Below are positions 5,640-52,954 of a stretch of 64,000 nucleotides of DNA, in pieces. This DNA is from Viridibacillus arenosi (GTDB taxonomy: Bacteria > Bacillota > Bacilli > Bacillales_A > Planococcaceae). The translations under genes and the position numbers were made by a program. The notes below the pieces were generated by a model. That model made no database searches, was not told the origin of the DNA, and was given only the letters and a program-made list of their open reading frames with translations. The stretch covers positions 310,001 through 374,000 of the forward strand of contig NZ_MSPW01000003.1 of NCBI RefSeq assembly GCF_001955655.1. Direction: 5' to 3'. Within the stretch, counting starts at the first letter, position 1. The number at the start of each line of letters is the position of its first letter.

Positions 5640-5942
5640 TTATTGATGTTGCTTTCTTGTATAAAGAACCAAAATGATTAACAACAACAGCATGATGAAT
5701 GAAATTAAGTTTAAAAATATATGCCCAAAATATTTTAAAAAAGGGGTAATAAAAAGTAAACATGCAAAGGCTATACAGAATAAGCCGTTGTTTTTTGCGA
5801 ATTTTGATTTATTGCCTTTGAATTTTTGACCATTATATCCTGCAACTAATTCAACATCTTCTTTTTTATAGATAAATAACCCTAAGGCTAAAAAGCAGAG
5901 ACTGATCAAACTTGTAATCAATATGTCGATTAAAGTAGCCAA
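5640..5942 (-). CDS. small membrane protein, DUF3784-like
   Basis: 100 residues with three hydrophobic segments (about 5-25, 50-70 and 75-95). Between the first two lies the sequence ELVAGYNGQKFKGNKSKFAKNN, which resembles the (L/I)AGYN motif of the DUF3784 family of small Firmicutes membrane proteins of unknown role. The start is a TTG with a strong AAGGAGGAG ribosome site five bases upstream. It has its own terminator and therefore seems monocistronic. No function can be assigned. Confidence 0.7.
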   Translation of the reverse strand: MATLIDILITSLISLCFLALGLFIYKKEDVELVAGYNGQKFKGNKSKFAKNNGLFCIAFACLLFITPFLKYFGHIFLNLISFIMLLLLIILVLYTRKQHQ

Positions 5943-6221
5943 GTTTACTCCTCCTTAGTGCTTATTTTATTTCATTTAATAAAATCTATGCATGGAAGAT
6001 GTCTTGCTTTAATAATTATATCCTCTAAAAGTTAATGTTATTTAATTGTTTTGTAAATTTTCATTCATTTTATATAAAATTTATTAAGGGTATCCTTGGA
6101 AAGTAGCTTATATTCAGTGATTATATCTAATTAGGACTGATTCTTATTCATCGAATTTGAATGAGCAACTAGTATATTTTCACAAAATATTTACAAAAAA
6201 CACTTTAAGTGGATAAGGTTT

Positions 6222-7352: not shown

Positions 7353-7586
7353 TTATTTAAGTGCCATCGTAATAAATTCTCCCATTGGTTTAAAGATTAC
7401 AATGATTAAATCAAAAGGATTTGGTATTTTTACTTTTAAAGCTACAGCTATACATAAAGTAGTACTGATGAATAGTAATATTGAAAAGGTCCAAATTTCT
7501 TTTTTTTCACCATTCTGCTTTAGTTTTGGTAATTGAAATAACAAGATGGCAGTAAAGAGGATTAAAATCCCAATTGTTTTAAACAT
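7353..7586 (-). CDS. germinant-receptor D subunit (small two-helix membrane protein)
   Basis: 77 residues with two hydrophobic helices (about 3-18 and 30-50) separated by a charged turn (KLKQNGEKKE) and a short hydrophobic tail. Its size, topology and place inside a ger operon match the D subunits found in some Bacillus germinant receptors, which tune the response of the A-B-C receptor. It begins six bases after the gerKC stop and ends 36 bases before gerKB, so it is co-transcribed. Assignment rests on topology and context. I do not recognise a sequence motif. Confidence 0.72.
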   Translation of the reverse strand: MFKTIGILILFTAILLFQLPKLKQNGEKKEIWTFSILLFISTTLCIAVALKVKIPNPFDLIIVIFKPMGEFITMALK

Positions 7587-8801: not shown

Positions 8802-10362
8802 CTAGATCACTCCTACCCTTTTTTCGTACTAGCTTCTGTTCTCTCTTGATATTCTTTTGATTAACTAAACGTGGTCTTGTTAAAAGTGAATCACGTGAAA
8901 ATAGTACAATTGCATCTTTTTGGTCAGATGGTATTAATGGTGCAAATGGTGCTGTATACGGTATACCAAAAGACCTTAAACTACAAACATGAAGAATAAT
9001 TGCAAAGGCACCCATCATTACTCCGTACAAACCAAACATCGCAGCTAAAATCATTAAAGGGAATCTTAGCATACGAATTGAATTTGACATTGCATACGCT
9101 GGTGATAAAAAACTACAAATGGCTGTTATTGACACAATAATAACCATTACTGCTGAAACAATCCCAGCCTCTACTGCAGCTTGCCCAATGATTAATGTCC
9201 CTACTATGGATACTGCTGGACCGATGACTCTTGGCATTCGTAGGCCGGCTTCTCTTAATATTTCAAATGCTATTTCCATAAGGATTGCTTCGATAAATGC
9301 TGGAAATGGAACTCCTTCTCGTTGAAGTGCAATACTAATCAACATGGGAGTTGGTATCATTTCTTGATGGAAAGTGGTGATTGAAATGTACAAAGAAGGA
9401 ATCATTAACGAAACAAATATTCCTCCAAATCTTAAAATACGAATTAAAGTGCTAATAATTGACCGTTGATAGTAATCTTCTGCCGCATGTAAAAAAGTTG
9501 GAAACAACGCTGGAACAATCAAAACAAATGGCGAACCATCCACTATGATTGCAACTTTTCCCTCTAACAGTGCTGCAGCAATAACATCTGGTCGCTCTGA
9601 ATTATAAACGGTTGGGAACGGGGTGAATTTAGAATCTTGAATTAACTCTTCAATATAGCCGCTATCCAATATGCCGTCTATCTCAATTTGGTCTAATCTT
9701 TCAAGAACTTCTTTTACGATTTTATCGTTTGCTATTCCATTGATGTACATAATCGCAACATCTGTTTGTGTTATTTCTCCAATAACTCTTGATTTTATCC
9801 AAAGATTAGGATCTTTTATCTTACGACGAATAAGTGCTGTATTCGTACGGAGTGTTTCAGTAAATGACTCCTGAGGTCCTCGAATGACTGATTCCGTACT
9901 TGGTTGTGATATCGCTCGATCCTTTGAACTTTTTGTACTTGTAGCAATACCTTTTGTTTGACCTTCTAATAGAATGACTGTTTCACCATTTAAAACAGCA
10001 CGATATACACTCTGTAGATCAGTAACATCTTCCACATCACCAACTGTTAAGCAAAAATTTTTCAGATATTGAATGATATCTTCTTCGCGTGTTTCTGGTG
10101 TCGACTCTATATCTAGCATAAGCGATTCCATGATAAAATCTGTAATTGCAGTTTTATCAGCAAGACCATCAGCATAAATAATTGCAATCCGTTGTTTATC
10201 TGTTTTTAAAATATCTACTTCTCGGATAATAATATCGTTACTGTTTCCCATTGCTTTTTTGATGATTTTCACATTCTCAGAAAGGCTTTTAAGAAGCGGA
10301 TCCTTAGATTTATTCTTTTTGGATTCAGGAGAATTTGAATTATTATTCTTTGAAAAGCTCAA
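8791..10362 (-). CDS. gerKA: germinant receptor A subunit (GerAA/GerKA family)
   Basis: About 523 residues. A large soluble N-terminal half with duplicated features (IAIIYADGLADK and VAIMYINGIANDKIV) is followed by the GerA signature LLEGKVAIIVDGSPF, PALFPTFLHAAEDYYQR and about five membrane helices. The C-terminus is LIPSDQKDAIVLFSRDSLLTRPR. The frame opens at an ATG at 10425 with no ribosome site and a poor N-terminus. AAAGGGG lies eight bases before the TTG at 10362 (MSFSKNNNSN), so I choose 10362. It is the first gene of the operon, presumably forespore-expressed, but I could not see a convincing sigma-G promoter. Confidence 0.9.
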   Translation of the reverse strand: MSFSKNNNSNSPESKKNKSKDPLLKSLSENVKIIKKAMGNSNDIIIREVDILKTDKQRIAIIYADGLADKTAITDFIMESLMLDIESTPETREEDIIQYLKNFCLTVGDVEDVTDLQSVYRAVLNGETVILLEGQTKGIATSTKSSKDRAISQPSTESVIRGPQESFTETLRTNTALIRRKIKDPNLWIKSRVIGEITQTDVAIMYINGIANDKIVKEVLERLDQIEIDGILDSGYIEELIQDSKFTPFPTVYNSERPDVIAAALLEGKVAIIVDGSPFVLIVPALFPTFLHAAEDYYQRSIISTLIRILRFGGIFVSLMIPSLYISITTFHQEMIPTPMLISIALQREGVPFPAFIEAILMEIAFEILREAGLRMPRVIGPAVSIVGTLIIGQAAVEAGIVSAVMVIIVSITAICSFLSPAYAMSNSIRMLRFPLMILAAMFGLYGVMMGAFAIILHVCSLRSFGIPYTAPFAPLIPSDQKDAIVLFSRDSLLTRPRLVNQKNIKREQKLVRKKGRSDLGES

Positions 10363-10408
10363 TTTGAATTCCCCTTTCAAATGGACATTAGTATTAGAAA
10401 AAGTATGT

Positions 10409-10422
10409 ACTTGTTTACAAGT
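10409..10422. promoter_or_regulatory. 14-bp palindrome upstream of gerKA
   Basis: ACTTGTTTACAAGT is a perfect six-base inverted repeat with a TT centre, about 47 bases before the likely gerKA start. It could be an operator or a leader hairpin. No regulator is recognised for it. Confidence 0.4.
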
Positions 10423-10463
10423 CATTAAACAAAATTTGTTATTGAAAAAAGTTGATTAACTTA

Positions 10464-10507
10464 AAAACCCCACTTCTACCAATCGAAATAGGTGAGAGTG
10501 GGGTTTT
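10464..10507 (-). terminator. strong hairpin terminator upstream of gerKA
   Basis: AAAACCCCACT... pairs with ...AGTGGGGTTTT around an A-rich loop, with T5 on the minus strand. It lies upstream of gerKA, so it must end a separate minus-strand transcript that starts near 10700, or insulate the operon. T-rich flanks make it possibly bidirectional. Confidence 0.75.
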
Positions 10508-10582
10508 ATATATAAAAAATTTTATTAGATTATTACTAAACTTTTTGAATCGATAGTTCATTACCGTTGTTGTTTCCTGTTC

Positions 10583-10730
10583 TTATGAGGTAGAAGCTTG
10601 CCACATATCGATATTAACCCATAAGTTTTTGGCATATATATTTCCATCCATTTCATGACATATCAGTTCCCCTTTTTATTCCTTACGGAAAATTTATTTC
10701 CTTAAGGAAACTTTATTATAATATATTACC
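10583..10730 (-). other. candidate short MntR-controlled transcription unit with a tiny ORF
   Basis: Reading leftwards: a TATAAT-like element at about 10713-10722, the MntR-like boxes, an AAAAGGGG Shine-Dalgarno sequence (10669-10676), and then short frames. The ATG at ideal spacing gives only ATG-TCA-TGA. The adjacent frame gives a 22-codon ORF at 10583-10651 (MDGNIYAKNLWVNIDMWQAS...) that would join the ideal ATG if one base were removed. A 31-codon ORF also exists at 10561-10656. The unit ends at the terminator 10464-10507. It may be a decayed tiny gene or a small RNA. I do not recognise the peptide. Confidence 0.3.
10679..10710. promoter_or_regulatory. orphan MntR-like operator pair
   Basis: TTTCCTTAAGGAAA at 10697-10710 is a perfect 14-base palindrome identical to the two boxes in front of the mntABCD operon in this window. 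TTCCTTACGGAA at 10679-10690 is a near copy 18 bases away. The shape is that of Bacillus MntR (DtxR-family) operators as I remember them. A TATAAT-like element adjoins it, readable on either strand. Confidence 0.6.
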
Positions 10731-11064
10731 TATTTCCGTTTTGGTTCACTATTCATAGGGGAAATTTATATTTATACCTATTTCAGCACAAAGTATGTAC
10801 AAATGACTATCACAGTTCTTAGTTCACTTAACAATTTCAGAAAACCTGATGAAGGGACATATTGTAAACAATGAGTTTAGTCCTGTTAATGAAGATAAAT
10901 TATTCAGTGAATTTGTTATACAGGTAGAAGAATGATATTTCTTCAACAGGTTCTAGTTAGATAAAAAGCTCTCAATAATTAAAACGCAAGGTTTTTACAC
11001 CCTGCGTTTTTTGAGGTTTAGCTGTCAAATTTAGTTTAAATAGCACGCTTTAAGAAAAATACTT
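10711..11064. other. intergenic stretch without a recognisable intact gene
   Basis: It holds a possible rightward transcript from the MntR-like promoter to the hairpin at 10981-11010. The only open frame with protein-like character is a start-less run at about 10807-10935 ending in ...EFSPVNEDKLFSEFVIQVEE, which could be a gene relic. Nothing else is supportable. Confidence 0.3.
10981..11010. terminator. hairpin terminator between the lipoprotein gene and the MntR-box region
   Basis: AAAACGCA-AGG pairs with CC-TGCGTTTT, with T runs on both sides. It can end the minus-strand lipoprotein gene (stop at 11065) and any rightward transcript from about 10720. Confidence 0.75.
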
Positions 11065-11544
11065 TTAGCTCACCCAAGATTCTCTTAGTTTCTTTATTCG
11101 CCAAGTTCCACCTTTGTAGTGAACTGTACTTTCTACTCCGATAGCCCCTTTTGCTGATCTGTATTTCGAACCATTAAAGAAGATATTGTTTTTTACGTTA
11201 AAATTAACTTTTTGAACTGTTAGAAGTACTCCGTCTAAGGTATCCTCATTATAATATCCTTTTTCTTTTAAATCATCGAAAGTTGCTTCCATTACTTTAA
11301 CTTTATATTTATCTTCGAAATAATCTAGAATTGATTTTTTCTGTTTTTCATTTAATGCATCAAAATTACTCATATCAATAGCTATAAATTTCATATCATC
11401 ATTCAATGATTTGTCTGTTTCCATAATGGCATTTAAAGCAATTGTATATATTTCACTTGCATGTTCTTTTGGATTTATGTCAGTGTTGCAGGCTATAAGT
11501 AAAAACGTCAGCATAAATAGCATTGCCTTTAGTCTATTTTTCAT
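11065..11544 (-). CDS. small secreted lipoprotein of unknown function
   Basis: 159 residues. The N-terminus MKNRLKAMLFMLTFLLIAC is a lipoprotein signal with Cys19 as the lipid attachment residue. The mature part is charged and ends in a compact region (GSKYRSAKGAIGVESTVHYK, then WRIKKLRESWVS) that resembles the tails of other Bacillus surface lipoproteins of unknown role. A GGGGGAGG ribosome site lies directly upstream. There are no cofactor or catalytic motifs. It is monocistronic between two intergenic regions, and no partner can be named. Confidence 0.7.
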   Translation of the reverse strand: MKNRLKAMLFMLTFLLIACNTDINPKEHASEIYTIALNAIMETDKSLNDDMKFIAIDMSNFDALNEKQKKSILDYFEDKYKVKVMEATFDDLKEKGYYNEDTLDGVLLTVQKVNFNVKNNIFFNGSKYRSAKGAIGVESTVHYKGGTWRIKKLRESWVS

Positions 11545-27172: not shown

Positions 27173-28057
27173 CTATGATTTTATAGTGAGATTGTTCAAG
27201 TTAAGTAGTTTCCTTTTTTTCATTAATAAACCCTCATACGGTCTAAATAAAAAGACAAGTAAGAATATCCCTCCCGCTGTAGTAGCCATCATGCCTGCAA
27301 TTGATGCGTCAAAGAATTTTGCGAAATAATAGCCTCCAATAGCAGACAACATTCCAATTATCATACTTAAAATAATCATTCTTTTTACAGATTTACTAAG
27401 TAAATACGCCGTAGAAGCCGGTACAATTAACATCGCAACAACTAAGACAGCACCTACACTGTCAAATGCCGCAACAGTTGTAAACGATACGAGTGTCATA
27501 AATGCATAATGTAGAAAAACGAGAGGTAGGCCAATACTCATTGCAAAGATAGGATCAAATGTTGACAGTTTTATTTCTTTATAAAACCCTAAAAGAAATA
27601 GAATATTTATCAACAACACAAACATTAACATCCATACAGCTTTCGGCATTGTTAAGTTCATAAATGTCCAAGTATTCCAAGGTACAAATGCAATTTCGCC
27701 CATTAATACATGTTCTACATCTAAATGTACATTTCCAGCAAAAAGTGTAATCAGTAATACTCCTACCGCAAATAAAGTAGTAAAAACAACTCCAATTGAA
27801 GCATCCTCTTGTAATCCATTCGATTGTAGAACTTGCACTAAATAAGCCGTTATAACCCCTGCAATTCCAGCTCCTAGCATCATCCATATGCCATTTAATG
27901 ACTGTGTAATAATGAATGCCATGACGATACCAAATAAAACAGTATGACTAATCGCATCTGCTATCATAGCCATTTTGCGTAATATTAAAAATACACCTGT
28001 TAAACCACAAGTAATCCCAACTAATGAACCAGTTACTAAAACCCAAAACTCATTCAA
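27173..28057 (-). CDS. mntD: manganese ABC transporter permease (MntD/TroD-like)
   Basis: 294 residues, about eight to nine helices of the ABC-3 metal permease family. Motifs are MAMIADAISHTVLFGIV, DASIGVVFTTLFAVGVLLI and SVGAVLVVAMLIVPASTAYLL. It overlaps the preceding permease gene by four bases (TTGA) and uses a TTG start ten bases after GGAGG inside that gene. With 28054-28944 it forms a heterodimeric channel, the two-permease arrangement seen in mntABCD/troABCD. Manganese is inferred from the operator boxes in front of the operon. Zinc cannot be excluded from the permease alone. Confidence 0.88.
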   Translation of the reverse strand: MNEFWVLVTGSLVGITCGLTGVFLILRKMAMIADAISHTVLFGIVMAFIITQSLNGIWMMLGAGIAGVITAYLVQVLQSNGLQEDASIGVVFTTLFAVGVLLITLFAGNVHLDVEHVLMGEIAFVPWNTWTFMNLTMPKAVWMLMFVLLINILFLLGFYKEIKLSTFDPIFAMSIGLPLVFLHYAFMTLVSFTTVAAFDSVGAVLVVAMLIVPASTAYLLSKSVKRMIILSMIIGMLSAIGGYYFAKFFDASIAGMMATTAGGIFLLVFLFRPYEGLLMKKRKLLNLNNLTIKS

Positions 28058-28944
28058 GAGGCTTGCACCTCCTGTTTTAAAACCCGCTTCGCTATTTGTC
28101 GTCTTCTTTGAATTTTCACTAACAGACCTCGTCTTGGAGAAAATATATATGAAAAAATAAATAACAAAGATGCTGTAATGACAATGATTGGTCCAGTTGA
28201 TAACCCTGTCTTTAAAGAACTAATTAAAGTTCCGCATGCACCTGAAAAAGCACCAAACAAAGCACTCATAATTATCATGGTGACTAATTTATCCGACCAT
28301 ATTCTGGCTGTAGCCGCCGGAATAATCAGCATTGCAGACATTAATATAACACCTACAGCCTGTATACCTGTAACAATTGTTAACACTGTTATTGCTGTAA
28401 GTATAAATCTAAGAAAATTTACAGGTAAGCCAATTCCTTTAGCGAATGTAGTATCAAATATGATTAATTTCCATTCTTTATAAAAAGTTAAGCAAGTCAA
28501 AATGATTATTAAAGCACTTCCTGATAACCACACTAGGTCGCTTTTTGCCATAGTTGCTGCTTTGCCAAATATAAAATCGTTTAATCCACTTTGATTGCCA
28601 GAACTACTTTGATTAACAATTGTTAGTAAAACAATACCCGCTCCGAAGAAAACTGATAATACTATTCCAATGGCAGCATCTGACTTCAATTTGGAGCGAT
28701 TAATAATACCTTGAATCAAATATACTGATATAGTTGCCGTTATTATTGCACCCAGCATTAATAATGGTAAATCCTTTTGCTGAAATATCAGAAATGAAAT
28801 TGCAATACCTGGAAGTGCTGCATGAGCAGCAGCATCACCTACAAGGCTTTGCTTTTGAAGAAATGCAAATGATCCGATTAATCCAGAGGCAACTCCTAAT
28901 AAAGATGCACCAGCTAGAACCCACAATAAGTTACCTGATAGCAT
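28054..28944 (-). CDS. mntC: manganese ABC transporter permease (MntC/TroC-like)
   Basis: 296 residues of the ABC-3 permease family. Motifs are LLGVASGLIGSFAFLQKQSLVGDAAAHAALPGI, SDAAIGIVLSVFFGAGIVLL and QAVGVILMSAMLIIPAATARI. A charged C-terminus (RRRQIAKRVLKQEVQ) follows the last helix. GGGGAGG precedes the ATG, and the start overlaps the end of mntB by 14 bases. It is the paralogous partner of the permease encoded next (27173-28057) in the inner membrane. Confidence 0.88.
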   Translation of the reverse strand: MLSGNLLWVLAGASLLGVASGLIGSFAFLQKQSLVGDAAAHAALPGIAISFLIFQQKDLPLLMLGAIITATISVYLIQGIINRSKLKSDAAIGIVLSVFFGAGIVLLTIVNQSSSGNQSGLNDFIFGKAATMAKSDLVWLSGSALIIILTCLTFYKEWKLIIFDTTFAKGIGLPVNFLRFILTAITVLTIVTGIQAVGVILMSAMLIIPAATARIWSDKLVTMIIMSALFGAFSGACGTLISSLKTGLSTGPIIVITASLLFIFSYIFSPRRGLLVKIQRRRQIAKRVLKQEVQAS

Positions 28945-29704
28945 TCAATCCTCCCCTTTCAGCAAGCGCTTCATTTTGCTTTTCATTCATAAAGAATAAC
29001 TTTCCTCCATACGCTTGTTGTAAATTTTCTTTTGTAAAAATTTCCTTAGTTGGTCCATAAGAAATGATTGTTTTATTCAGTAATACGGTCCAATCAAAAT
29101 AATCATTTACTGTTTGTAAATCATGGTGTACAACCAGTACTGTTTTCCCTTTTGCTTTTAATTCCTTTAAAATATTGATAATTGTAAGTTCAGTTGCTGC
29201 ATCAACACCTACAAATGGTTCATCCATAAAATAAATTTCAGCTTCCTGAGCAAGTGCTCGAGCTAAAAAAACGCGTTGTTGTTGCCCACCTGATAATTGA
29301 CCAATTGAACGATTTGCAAATTCCCCCATACCAACACTTTTCAGACATTTAATAGCCTTTTTTCGATCTTTAGCTTTAGGTCTATTAAATAATCCTATAT
29401 GACCATAACGTCCCATTAAAACGACATCTAATGCATTTGTTGGAAAATCCCAATCTACTGCATTTCGTTGTGGAACATAACCCACAAGATGATTTTTAGG
29501 ATTTAAAGAATGACCTAATATCTCCACTTTCCCAGTTTTATTAGGTAGCTGATTTAAAATTGCTTTTATCAGTGTAGATTTCCCAGCACCATTCGGACCA
29601 ATAATCCCAACTAATTTTCCAACAGGTACACTTAAATTAATATCACGTAAAACAAGATTGTCTTCATATGCCACTGATAAATGGCTTACTTCAATTGCAT
29701 TCAT
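28931..29704 (-). CDS. mntB: manganese ABC transporter ATP-binding protein (MntB-like)
   Basis: 257 residues. Walker A is GPNGAGKST, signature LSGGQQQRVFLARALAQ, Walker B IYFMDEPFVGVDAAT, and switch His VLVVHHDLQTVNDYFDW. The segment VGYVPQRNAVDWDFPTNALDVVLMGRYG with the V-D-W-D-F-P pattern is characteristic of Mn/Zn/Fe importer ATPases. It lies 12 bp behind mntA and overlaps mntC. Confidence 0.92.
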   Translation of the reverse strand: MNAIEVSHLSVAYEDNLVLRDINLSVPVGKLVGIIGPNGAGKSTLIKAILNQLPNKTGKVEILGHSLNPKNHLVGYVPQRNAVDWDFPTNALDVVLMGRYGHIGLFNRPKAKDRKKAIKCLKSVGMGEFANRSIGQLSGGQQQRVFLARALAQEAEIYFMDEPFVGVDAATELTIINILKELKAKGKTVLVVHHDLQTVNDYFDWTVLLNKTIISYGPTKEIFTKENLQQAYGGKLFFMNEKQNEALAERGGLNAIR

Positions 29705-29716
29705 ATTTTCCTCCCC

Positions 29717-30625
29717 CTACTTCAATGAGTTTACAATTGTATCTACATTGTGTTTATACATTCCAATATAAGTTCCTTGTTCTGTTCCTTCTTTTCCCAT
29801 AGCATCTGAATATAACTCCCCGCCAATTTTCACATTTTGTCCTTTTTCTTTAGCTCCATCAATTACTGCTTTCATCGCTTTATCAGACACGCTTGATTCA
29901 ATAAATACAGCTTTAATATTGTTTCCGACTAAAAAGTCAACAACGTCCCTTACATCTTTTAGACCATATTCAGACTCCGTACTTAACCCTTGTAAACCAC
30001 GTACTTCTATATTCAAACTACGACCAAAATAATTAAAAGCATCATGTGCTGTTACCAGTACACGCTGATCTAAAGGTATCTCATCAATTCTTTGTTTTGC
30101 ATAACTCGATAGATCATCCAATTCTTCAAAGTAGATAGCTTCATTTTCACTAAACTCTTTCTTATATTCTGGATATTTTTCACTTAATGTAGCTGTAATT
30201 TGATGGACAGCAGTTTTCCAAATATCGATATCAAACCATACGTGAGGGTCATATAACTTTGCATCCATTTCATTTCCTAACAATTTCTCTTCTTCAATTG
30301 ATTCACTTATTGCATTAACAGTTTTATCATTTTCTTGCATCTTCTCAAAAACATCTAGCATCTTTCCTTCAAGATGAAGGCCACTATAAAAAATCACATC
30401 CGCACTTTCTAATTTACTCAAGTCTCCTTGTGTCGCCTTATACAAATGTGGATCTACTCCAGGTCCCATCAAAGCCTTTACTTCTACACGATCTCCAGCA
30501 ATAACAGATACAGCGTCTGCAATTTGGCTAATTGTTGTTACAACAACTGGTTTATCATTTTCTTTTTTCGTTGAACATCCAGCTAAAAATAAGATTGCAG
30601 CAAAAAAAATAACTAACTTTTTCAA
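29717..30625 (-). CDS. mntA: manganese-binding lipoprotein (MntA/TroA-like)
   Basis: 302 residues. Signal peptide with lipobox LAGCSTK (Cys17). The cluster-A-I metal-binding fold has its ligands in GPGVDPHLYKATQGD (His60), DPHVWFDIDIW, TAHDAFNYFGR and GGELYSDAMG (Asp), the His-His-His-Asp set expected for Mn/Zn binding. There is no His-rich loop of the kind seen in many ZnuA proteins, which favours manganese. The start is a TTG with AAGGGGAG upstream. It is the first gene of mntABCD and lies behind two identical MntR-like boxes, so it should be repressed when manganese is plentiful. Confidence 0.93.
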   Translation of the reverse strand: MKKLVIFFAAILFLAGCSTKKENDKPVVVTTISQIADAVSVIAGDRVEVKALMGPGVDPHLYKATQGDLSKLESADVIFYSGLHLEGKMLDVFEKMQENDKTVNAISESIEEEKLLGNEMDAKLYDPHVWFDIDIWKTAVHQITATLSEKYPEYKKEFSENEAIYFEELDDLSSYAKQRIDEIPLDQRVLVTAHDAFNYFGRSLNIEVRGLQGLSTESEYGLKDVRDVVDFLVGNNIKAVFIESSVSDKAMKAVIDGAKEKGQNVKIGGELYSDAMGKEGTEQGTYIGMYKHNVDTIVNSLK

Positions 30626-30658: not shown

Positions 30659-30724
30659 TTTCCTTAAGGAAACTTTTTAGGTAAAAAAATAATTCCTTCG
30701 AACAATTGTTTTTCCTTAAGGAAA
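30659..30724 (-). promoter_or_regulatory. two identical MntR-like operators in front of mntABCD
   Basis: TTTCCTTAAGGAAA occurs at 30659-30672 and again at 30711-30724, 52 bases apart (about five helical turns). Each sits inside a longer direct repeat (AATTGTTTTTCC... to ...GGAAACTTT). The perfect palindrome and its position upstream of a Mn-type ABC operon indicate repression by a DtxR-family manganese regulator. Confidence 0.82.
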
Positions 30725-45649: not shown

Positions 45650-45708
45650 TTTTACACCTCATCTATTTTTTAATTATTTAAATAACGGGGGAATATTTCC
45701 TGATTTCC

Positions 45709-45722
45709 GGAAAACGTTTTCC
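45709..45722. promoter_or_regulatory. LacI-type operator in front of the importer operon
   Basis: GGAAAACGTTTTCC is a perfect 14-base palindrome with the central CG typical of LacI/CcpA-family operators, 60 bases upstream of the MocA gene. It is the likely target of the adjacent LacI regulator. Confidence 0.75.
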
Positions 45723-45753
45723 CAAAGAGTTTTAAAAATTAATTGACGATTTG

Positions 45754-46810: not shown

Positions 46811-47386
46811 TTCCTATTATTATACAATATATTTTATAGTAGTATAGGGAATTTTTTACGCATGCCTATATTAGGTCAACAGGTTGTAGGTACAAGTTAA
46901 ATTAAAGAAATATCAATACCTTTTTTATATTCTGAAAATTGGTACTAAATACAATATATAATCCGAAATATTAATTGTCAATATATTTTTTTATTTACTT
47001 TATTAACATAATTTATCATTAAACCACTGTTTAAATGTTGAGTTTATTTAATGTTAATACAATATTATTCTAGAGCTATCAGCGTATTCATGCATATTAA
47101 CAATACTTATTTTTCGTTTACCAAAACCATTAAAAAGACTGTTAAAAATTATATCTTGTACGTAATCATTATTGGGATTTCATGAGAATTGTAGATCGTA
47201 TTTATCGATTTTAGTTTGTAAAATATATTCTTTTTATTAAATACGACGATTTAATTTAGAACAGTAAGTCTTTATATTAAGGTTAGTTTTTTTAAACATT
47301 TCTATATATTAAAAGAGCATTCTCCTGTAATAGAAATGCCCTTTAATATTTCATATTCTTATTCTCTTTTGACGAAAATTCTTTTA
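46811..47386. other. long AT-rich intergenic region with a terminator at its left side
   Basis: About 575 bases, strongly AT-rich, with no ORF over 40 codons that looks coding. It must hold the promoter of the LacI-type gene. At 47312-47344, AAAGAGCATT pairs (one mismatch) with AATGCCCTTT and forms the terminator of the leftward ABC-2 operon. I see no other structure. Confidence 0.5.
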
Positions 47387-52648: not shown

Positions 52649-52875
52649 ACAACAACATTCTCTTTTCGAAATACTGAACTAGTAGCAAGAACATTTTCTA
52701 TTATGAAAGTTCTTTTTGCATGTTTCACAAAGCAATAATCTTGGAAAATTCCATCGGTCATTTTAATGATTTTCACACGCCTTTTAGTTATCTTTCCACC
52801 TTTCGACATGTATATTAAATCAATAATTTGATTGCGCTGCATGGCTTTGATTAGCTGCTCTTTCACTATGTTCAC
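52645..52875 (-). CDS. small WYL-like protein, first gene of an SOS-boxed pair
   Basis: 76 residues. QLIKAMQRNQIIDLIYMSKGGKITKRRVKI (in parts) and the tail RTFIIENVLATSSV follow the pattern of a short WYL-type SH3-like fold (I-x-Y-x-s, basic turn, F-x-x-x-x-I). Such small proteins accompany UvrX/YolD genes in Bacillus. Ribosome site AGGAG before the ATG. A LexA-type box lies 20-33 bases upstream, so expression should rise on DNA damage. Confidence 0.68.
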   Translation of the reverse strand: MNIVKEQLIKAMQRNQIIDLIYMSKGGKITKRRVKIIKMTDGIFQDYCFVKHAKRTFIIENVLATSSVFRKENVVV

Positions 52876-52894
52876 TCCTTTTTTATCAGTATAC

Positions 52895-52908
52895 AGAACA
52901 TTTGTTCT
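52895..52908. promoter_or_regulatory. LexA (SOS) box
   Basis: AGAACATTTGTTCT contains the invariant GAAC-N4-GTTC core of the Bacillus LexA operator (CGAACN4GTTCG), with A/T instead of C/G at the outermost positions. It is a perfect palindrome in front of the two-gene unit. Confidence 0.8.
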
Positions 52909-52928
52909 TATTTCAAATAAAAAAATAA

Positions 52929-52954
52929 CCTGTTAGCTTTTAATTGCTAACTGG
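52929..52954 (-). terminator. terminator of the frameshifted small gene
   Basis: CC-A-GTTAGC pairs with GCTAAC-A-GG around eight bases, with TTATTTTTTTATTT on the minus strand. It lies about 50 bases after the stop at 53003. Confidence 0.8.

Follow-up and report, generated by a model that had tools for sequence, protein, structure and literature searches.

The window analysed here is a 64,000-nucleotide stretch of the Viridibacillus arenosi genome (contig NZ_MSPW01000003.1, positions 310,001 to 374,000), and our comparison genomes within the genus were V. arvi DSM 16317, which is close to the window genome, and V. soli. Between the gerA operon and a minus-strand lipoprotein gene (11065..11544) lies a region that the initial annotation had called gene-less. 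That description has to be given up, since the region holds a fragment of mntA and a constrained 31-codon open reading frame (ORF). The features of this orphan locus, together with the parts of the mntABCD operon to which they correspond, are as follows.

10463..10508, minus strand: intrinsic terminator, ACCCCACT...AGTGGGGT and then a U run, conserved in V. arvi
10561..10656, minus strand: 31-codon ORF, MKWMEIYMPKTYGLISICGKLLPHKNRKQQR, with frame-specific constraint; 93 of 96 bases identical in V. arvi
10592..10677, minus strand: fragment from the middle of mntA, 63 of 86 bases identical to window positions 30209-30294
10666..10677, minus strand: purine-rich possible ribosome-binding site, AAAAAGGGGAAC (AAAAAGAGGAGT in V. 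arvi), from sequence
10678..10691, no strand assigned: degenerate second operator, ATTCCTTACGGAAA, 19 bases from the first
10697..10710, no strand assigned: predicted MntR operator, TTTCCTTAAGGAAA, an exact copy of both mntA operators and perfect in V. arvi
10715..10748, minus strand: promoter, from sequence and alignment to the mntA promoter
29717..30625, minus strand: intact mntA (PF01297), the parent gene and first gene of mntABCD (27173-30625)
30659..30672 and 30711..30724, no strand assigned: the two mntA operators, by pattern match upstream of mntA

The initial annotation had observed that the mntABCD-type palindrome recurs here with a TATAAT element. Both are present: the palindrome is exact, and TATAAT reads on the minus strand at 10720..10715. 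The latter overlaps a -10 element, TATATT (10725..10720), that is preceded by a 17-base spacer and a -35-like TGAACC (10748..10743). This -35 is weak; the aligned mntA promoter has TTGACA. The operator lies directly 3' of the -10, over the expected transcription start. As an exact 14-mer, TTTCCTTAAGGAAA occurs three times in the whole 4.43-Mb genome, at the orphan locus and at 30659 and 30711 before mntA, and the reversed pattern has no match in the genome. Five sites elsewhere in the genome carry one mismatch; four are inside long ORFs, and none of the five has a manganese gene downstream. Matches with up to three mismatches are not enriched in the 64-kb window (14, against 9.7 expected from shuffles), so that the weight rests on the exact match and its context only.

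A single MntR is encoded in the genome; it matches its B. subtilis counterpart with an E value of 3e-64. Half of the degenerate second operator is also found in the mntA promoter. In other genera of the family the exact box stands upstream of mntA, mntB and an mntH-like Nramp gene, and such boxes often come in pairs 19 bases apart. The MntR site of B. subtilis mntH is TTTGCCTTAAGGAAAC, also used in the literature as AATTTGCCTTAAGGAAACTC, and its core, CCTTAAGGAAA, is identical to that of the orphan box (PMC9861239). Unlike such Bacillus operators, the orphan box precedes an unannotated tiny ORF and not a transporter gene. Taking together its rarity in the genome, the single MntR gene, the B. 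subtilis core and the manganese genes downstream in relatives, we identify the orphan box with good confidence as a putative MntR operator. A member of the MntR regulon is expected to have an operator that overlaps its promoter or transcription start, in a genome that encodes MntR, and the locus has both.

Two further observations concern these boxes. In one genus of the family, an MntR-type box, often as a pair at the 19-base distance, lies upstream of sodA, which suggests that manganese superoxide dismutase is under MntR control in that genus. Operators have also drifted between close species. The box upstream of mntH (Nramp) is TTTCCTAAAGGAAA in V. arvi, TTTCTCTAAGGAAA in V. soli and degenerate in the window genome. 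In V. arvi the operator of the orphan locus is perfect, but both mntA operators have drifted, to TTTCCTTTAGGAAA and TTTCCTTCGGGAAA.

Used as a DNA query against relatives, the orphan region matched the genome's own mnt operon twice. Local alignment resolved two homologous pieces, with 10678-10785 corresponding to the promoter region of mntA and 10592-10677 to the middle of the gene (73%). The operator, the half operator and the purine-rich stretch adjoin sequence equivalent to mntA from about codon 110 onward. Compared with Bacillota mntABCD operons, which encode an MntA/SitA-type metal-binding lipoprotein, the promoter, operator and 86-base stretch are homologous to those of the genome's own mntA, whereas the orphan copy has lost the start, the signal peptide and most of the coding sequence, more than 300 bases of it from the missing front part. 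In the mntA frame the fragment reads KGELICHEMDGNIYAKNLWVNIDMWQASTS and then a stop, where intact mntA reads EEKLLGNEMDAKLYDPHVWFDIDIWKTA. This frame is dead and ends after about 30 codons, and the metal-ligand motif DPHVW is replaced by AKNLW. Members of the mntA family (PF01297) have an intact frame, a lipoprotein signal and metal ligands; the fragment does not qualify as one, its frame starting mid-gene. Beyond distant 30% relatives, there is no mntA paralogue in the genus that is closer to the fragment. From the promoter and mid-mntA homology, the dead frame and the lost DPHVW, we conclude that the locus is, by its sequence, a truncated mntA duplicate in which a deletion joined an mntA-type promoter to a mid-gene piece. 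The initial annotation had offered the promoter of a lost gene as one possibility, and this homology bears it out. Separately, intact mntA of all three Viridibacillus species already contains this out-of-frame reading as an open frame of about 29 codons (30199-30273 in the window).

The first sizeable minus-strand ORF past the purine-rich site is that at 10561..10656, and its frame differs from that of mntA. A G-rich site, AAAAAGGGG, lies at about 10669-10677 on the minus strand (AAAAAGAGGAG in V. arvi); the initial annotation had pointed to this site and to a terminator on the leftward side, and both are confirmed. The spacing from the G-rich site to the ATG (10656) is long in the window genome. 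Over 22 aligned codons, the ORF differs from mntA at 16 bases, which fall 3, 3 and 10 on ORF codon positions 1, 2 and 3; seven codons are silently changed and 17 of the 22 residues are kept. We simulated random placement of the 16 changes, with equal rates across sites and mntA treated as the ancestor. A mean of 11.3 to 11.8 residues was then kept, and at least 17 were kept in 0 to 0.08% of simulations (P 0 to 8e-4), depending on the substitution model and the mntA ancestor chosen. The same simulation gave P > 0.65 for each of the other five frames, and after correction for six frames P is still about 0.005 or less. Varying the assumed ORF length between 16 and 31 codons, or taking the copy of either species, leaves the constraint in place (P 0 to 0.012).

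We considered that selection on mntA itself might have left this pattern. Between the window genome and V. soli, intact mntA differs at 34, 18 and 90 bases on its own codon positions 1, 2 and 3. Position 3 of mntA is position 2 of the ORF, and the mntA pattern would place 63% of the changes there, where the fragment shows 3. Because changes under mntA selection would mostly hit a position where few occur, such selection cannot, on this comparison, be the source. The ORF frame itself appears to have been preserved by selection. A silent bias in one frame, the usual sign of protein coding, is found on the branch from mntA with P < 0.001; its strength is moderate because it comes from two species only, and the coding argument lies wholly in one short stretch of 66 to 96 bases. 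Between the window genome and V. arvi the ORF has one silent and two replacing changes, which are uninformative on coding. The predicted peptide has 31 residues, a net charge of +6 and a moderately hydrophobic middle. It matches no family in Pfam or NCBIfam, and AlphaFold2 models it, at low confidence (pLDDT 63), as one helix spanning residues 3-21.

V. arvi carries the mntA-derived unit at the same place, before the same gerA operon. Its ORF is 96.9% identical (93/96) to that of the window genome. Fourfold-degenerate sites are 80.6% identical between the two (5544 sites in the alignable part of the window) and non-coding DNA 89.1% on average, which gives P values of 2e-6 and 0.005, respectively, for the ORF. 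The stretch from promoter to stop (10561-10740) is identical at 170 of 180 positions, including a 69-base run without change, and the flanks (10741-10860 and 10506-10560) at 84%. As a background to these figures, 14% of 96-base non-coding windows are as conserved as the ORF; several of them are coding DNA missed by the mask, probably an edge gene (92-954) and a 77-residue ORF (7353..7586). Other conserved stretches stand out in their own right. Upstream of the DUF3784-like gene 5640..5942, V. arvi matches the window genome almost or entirely base for base over about 140 non-coding bases (5943-6084); with 96-base windows at 100% they are among the most conserved non-coding stretches of the window, and they have no Rfam match. 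Three more stretches outside long ORFs (45650-45753, 46865-47017 and 52775-52931) are conserved with V. arvi as well as the tiny ORF is.

V. soli does not have the unit. The initial annotation had proposed conservation of 10561-10720 in relatives as a check, and it is found in V. arvi but not in V. soli, where the locus is absent. Before gerA, V. soli has a homologue of the DUF3784-type gene 5640..5942, and mntABCD follows directly after its ger operon. DNA and peptide searches across the family (261 genomes) placed the locus in two soil bacteria only, V. arvi and the window genome; all else that matched was mntA itself, operators of other genes or a few weak hits at chance level. A similarity search of plasmid DNA with the locus found none. 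Either the unit arose once V. soli had split off, on the branch leading to V. arvi, or V. soli has lost it. The surroundings have changed as well. In V. soli, mntABCD and the ger operon adjoin the DUF3784-type gene and a 345-residue gene. The corresponding parts of the window genome (5640-10425 and 27173-31939) follow another order, with about 17-20 kb separating mntABCD from the ger operon and the DUF3784-type gene. The ger/mntABCD stretch is thus rearranged, perhaps together with the mntA duplication. We also note that the long gerA start (10425) is broken in V. arvi by an in-frame TAA (10360-10425 region). In V. arvi and the window genome alike, gerA probably starts instead at the TTG at 10362, which follows GAAAGGGG.

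What the locus produces can be read in several ways. The initial annotation had placed a terminator on the rightward side too. There is a real hairpin at about 10977-11013, and a near-symmetric AT-rich -10 could in principle start a short plus-strand transcript ending at 11013. Read on the minus strand, however, the hairpin immediately follows the lipoprotein gene 11065..11544, to which it most simply belongs; moreover, V. arvi lacks 10865-10948, and no plus-strand ORF is conserved. We rejected the rightward transcript as hardly credible, and with it the hairpin's role as its end. A spare operator that titrates MntR and has no product would account for the perfect conservation of the box in V. 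arvi. One extra site of three can presumably hardly titrate a repressor, though, and the ORF constraint and the terminator would be left unexplained, so we regard this as very improbable. A regulatory RNA, as the initial annotation had suggested in the form of a manganese-responsive small RNA, has more in its favour: the unit has its own promoter and terminator, it contains the 69-base run identical in V. arvi, and its RNA fold is somewhat more stable than shuffles (z -1.9), mostly due to the terminator, whose stem persists in V. arvi despite the change of an A-U pair to G-U. Sharing part of the mntA sense sequence, such a transcript of about 245 bases could, for example, act as a sponge for a binder of mntA mRNA. 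The shared sense also makes pairing with mntA mRNA impossible. The substitutions are patterned by codon position, and a function as RNA gives no reason to expect changes at the third position of one frame; Rfam searches of the window, at permissive and gathering thresholds, returned chance matches only, with none at the gathering score. We therefore set the small RNA aside as improbable.

The main rival is that the locus is no more than a pseudogene relic, left by a truncated mntA duplicate. Its promoter and operator would simply not have decayed yet, no useful product would be made, and any transcript would be without effect. Descent from mntA is clear, as is the loss of the start and the ligands, the locus is limited to two close species, the peptide belongs to no known family, and 10506-10560 is only 84% identical to V. 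arvi, all of which a relic would explain. A relic does not explain why the changes from mntA cluster on silent positions of one frame, why the ORF is 97% identical to V. arvi against 81% at fourfold sites, or why operator and terminator are kept. We consider the relic unlikely.

The reading that we prefer, and hold to be somewhat probable, is a tiny MntR-repressed gene overprinted from a broken mntA duplicate, MntS-like in role and not homologous to MntS. The locus has an operator, an mntA origin, frame-specific constraint and conservation in two species; from these, expression, translation, MntR control and a target of the peptide are inferred. A duplicated mntA promoter, together with its MntR operator, would have been joined to a mid-mntA piece when the gene start was deleted. 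In the presence of manganese, MntR:Mn would repress the unit. When manganese is scarce, MntR would leave the operator at the transcription start, and derepression would yield an mRNA of about 245 bases (from about 10712 to 10465, minus strand) from which the basic 31-residue peptide would be translated. The genome encodes MntP and MntH/Nramp homologues, and the peptide, by analogy with MntS, may be a small modulator of manganese homeostasis, possibly associated with the membrane, that works on a manganese transporter such as MntP or the importers. That an out-of-frame region of the metal site was recruited in this way as an MntR-controlled manganese-homeostasis peptide is a more tentative proposal, for which we would put the chances slightly short of even.

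In E. coli, MntS is induced by falling manganese, and its proposed action is a block of the exporter MntP (PMC4361602). MntS (42 residues, from the RybA transcript) is part of an MntR regulon; here too a tiny ORF goes with an MntR operator, in a genome that likewise holds MntP and MntH homologues. In contrast to MntS, the retained piece is mid-gene and out of frame, the phylum differs, and the peptide is predicted from sequence. The MntS peptide reportedly derives from SitA, a relative of MntA, and the origin of the orphan ORF may therefore run parallel. Homology to the 42-residue MntS is very unlikely, since the peptide comes from mid-mntA in another frame, and we do not class it as a member of the MntS family. 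Of the tiny MntS-like protein that the initial annotation had imagined, the constrained out-of-frame ORF stands, as read from the sequence, and homology is not claimed.

Genes for small proteins easily escape detection, and it is seldom possible to trace where they came from. At the orphan locus the sequence still reveals the gene of origin, the promoter and operator taken over from it, the deletion and the switch of frame. If the ORF is translated, its product would be a second, independent small protein of a manganese regulon to come from the gene of a manganese-binding protein, and would suggest that truncated transporter genes with a metal-responsive promoter are a repeatable source of small regulators.
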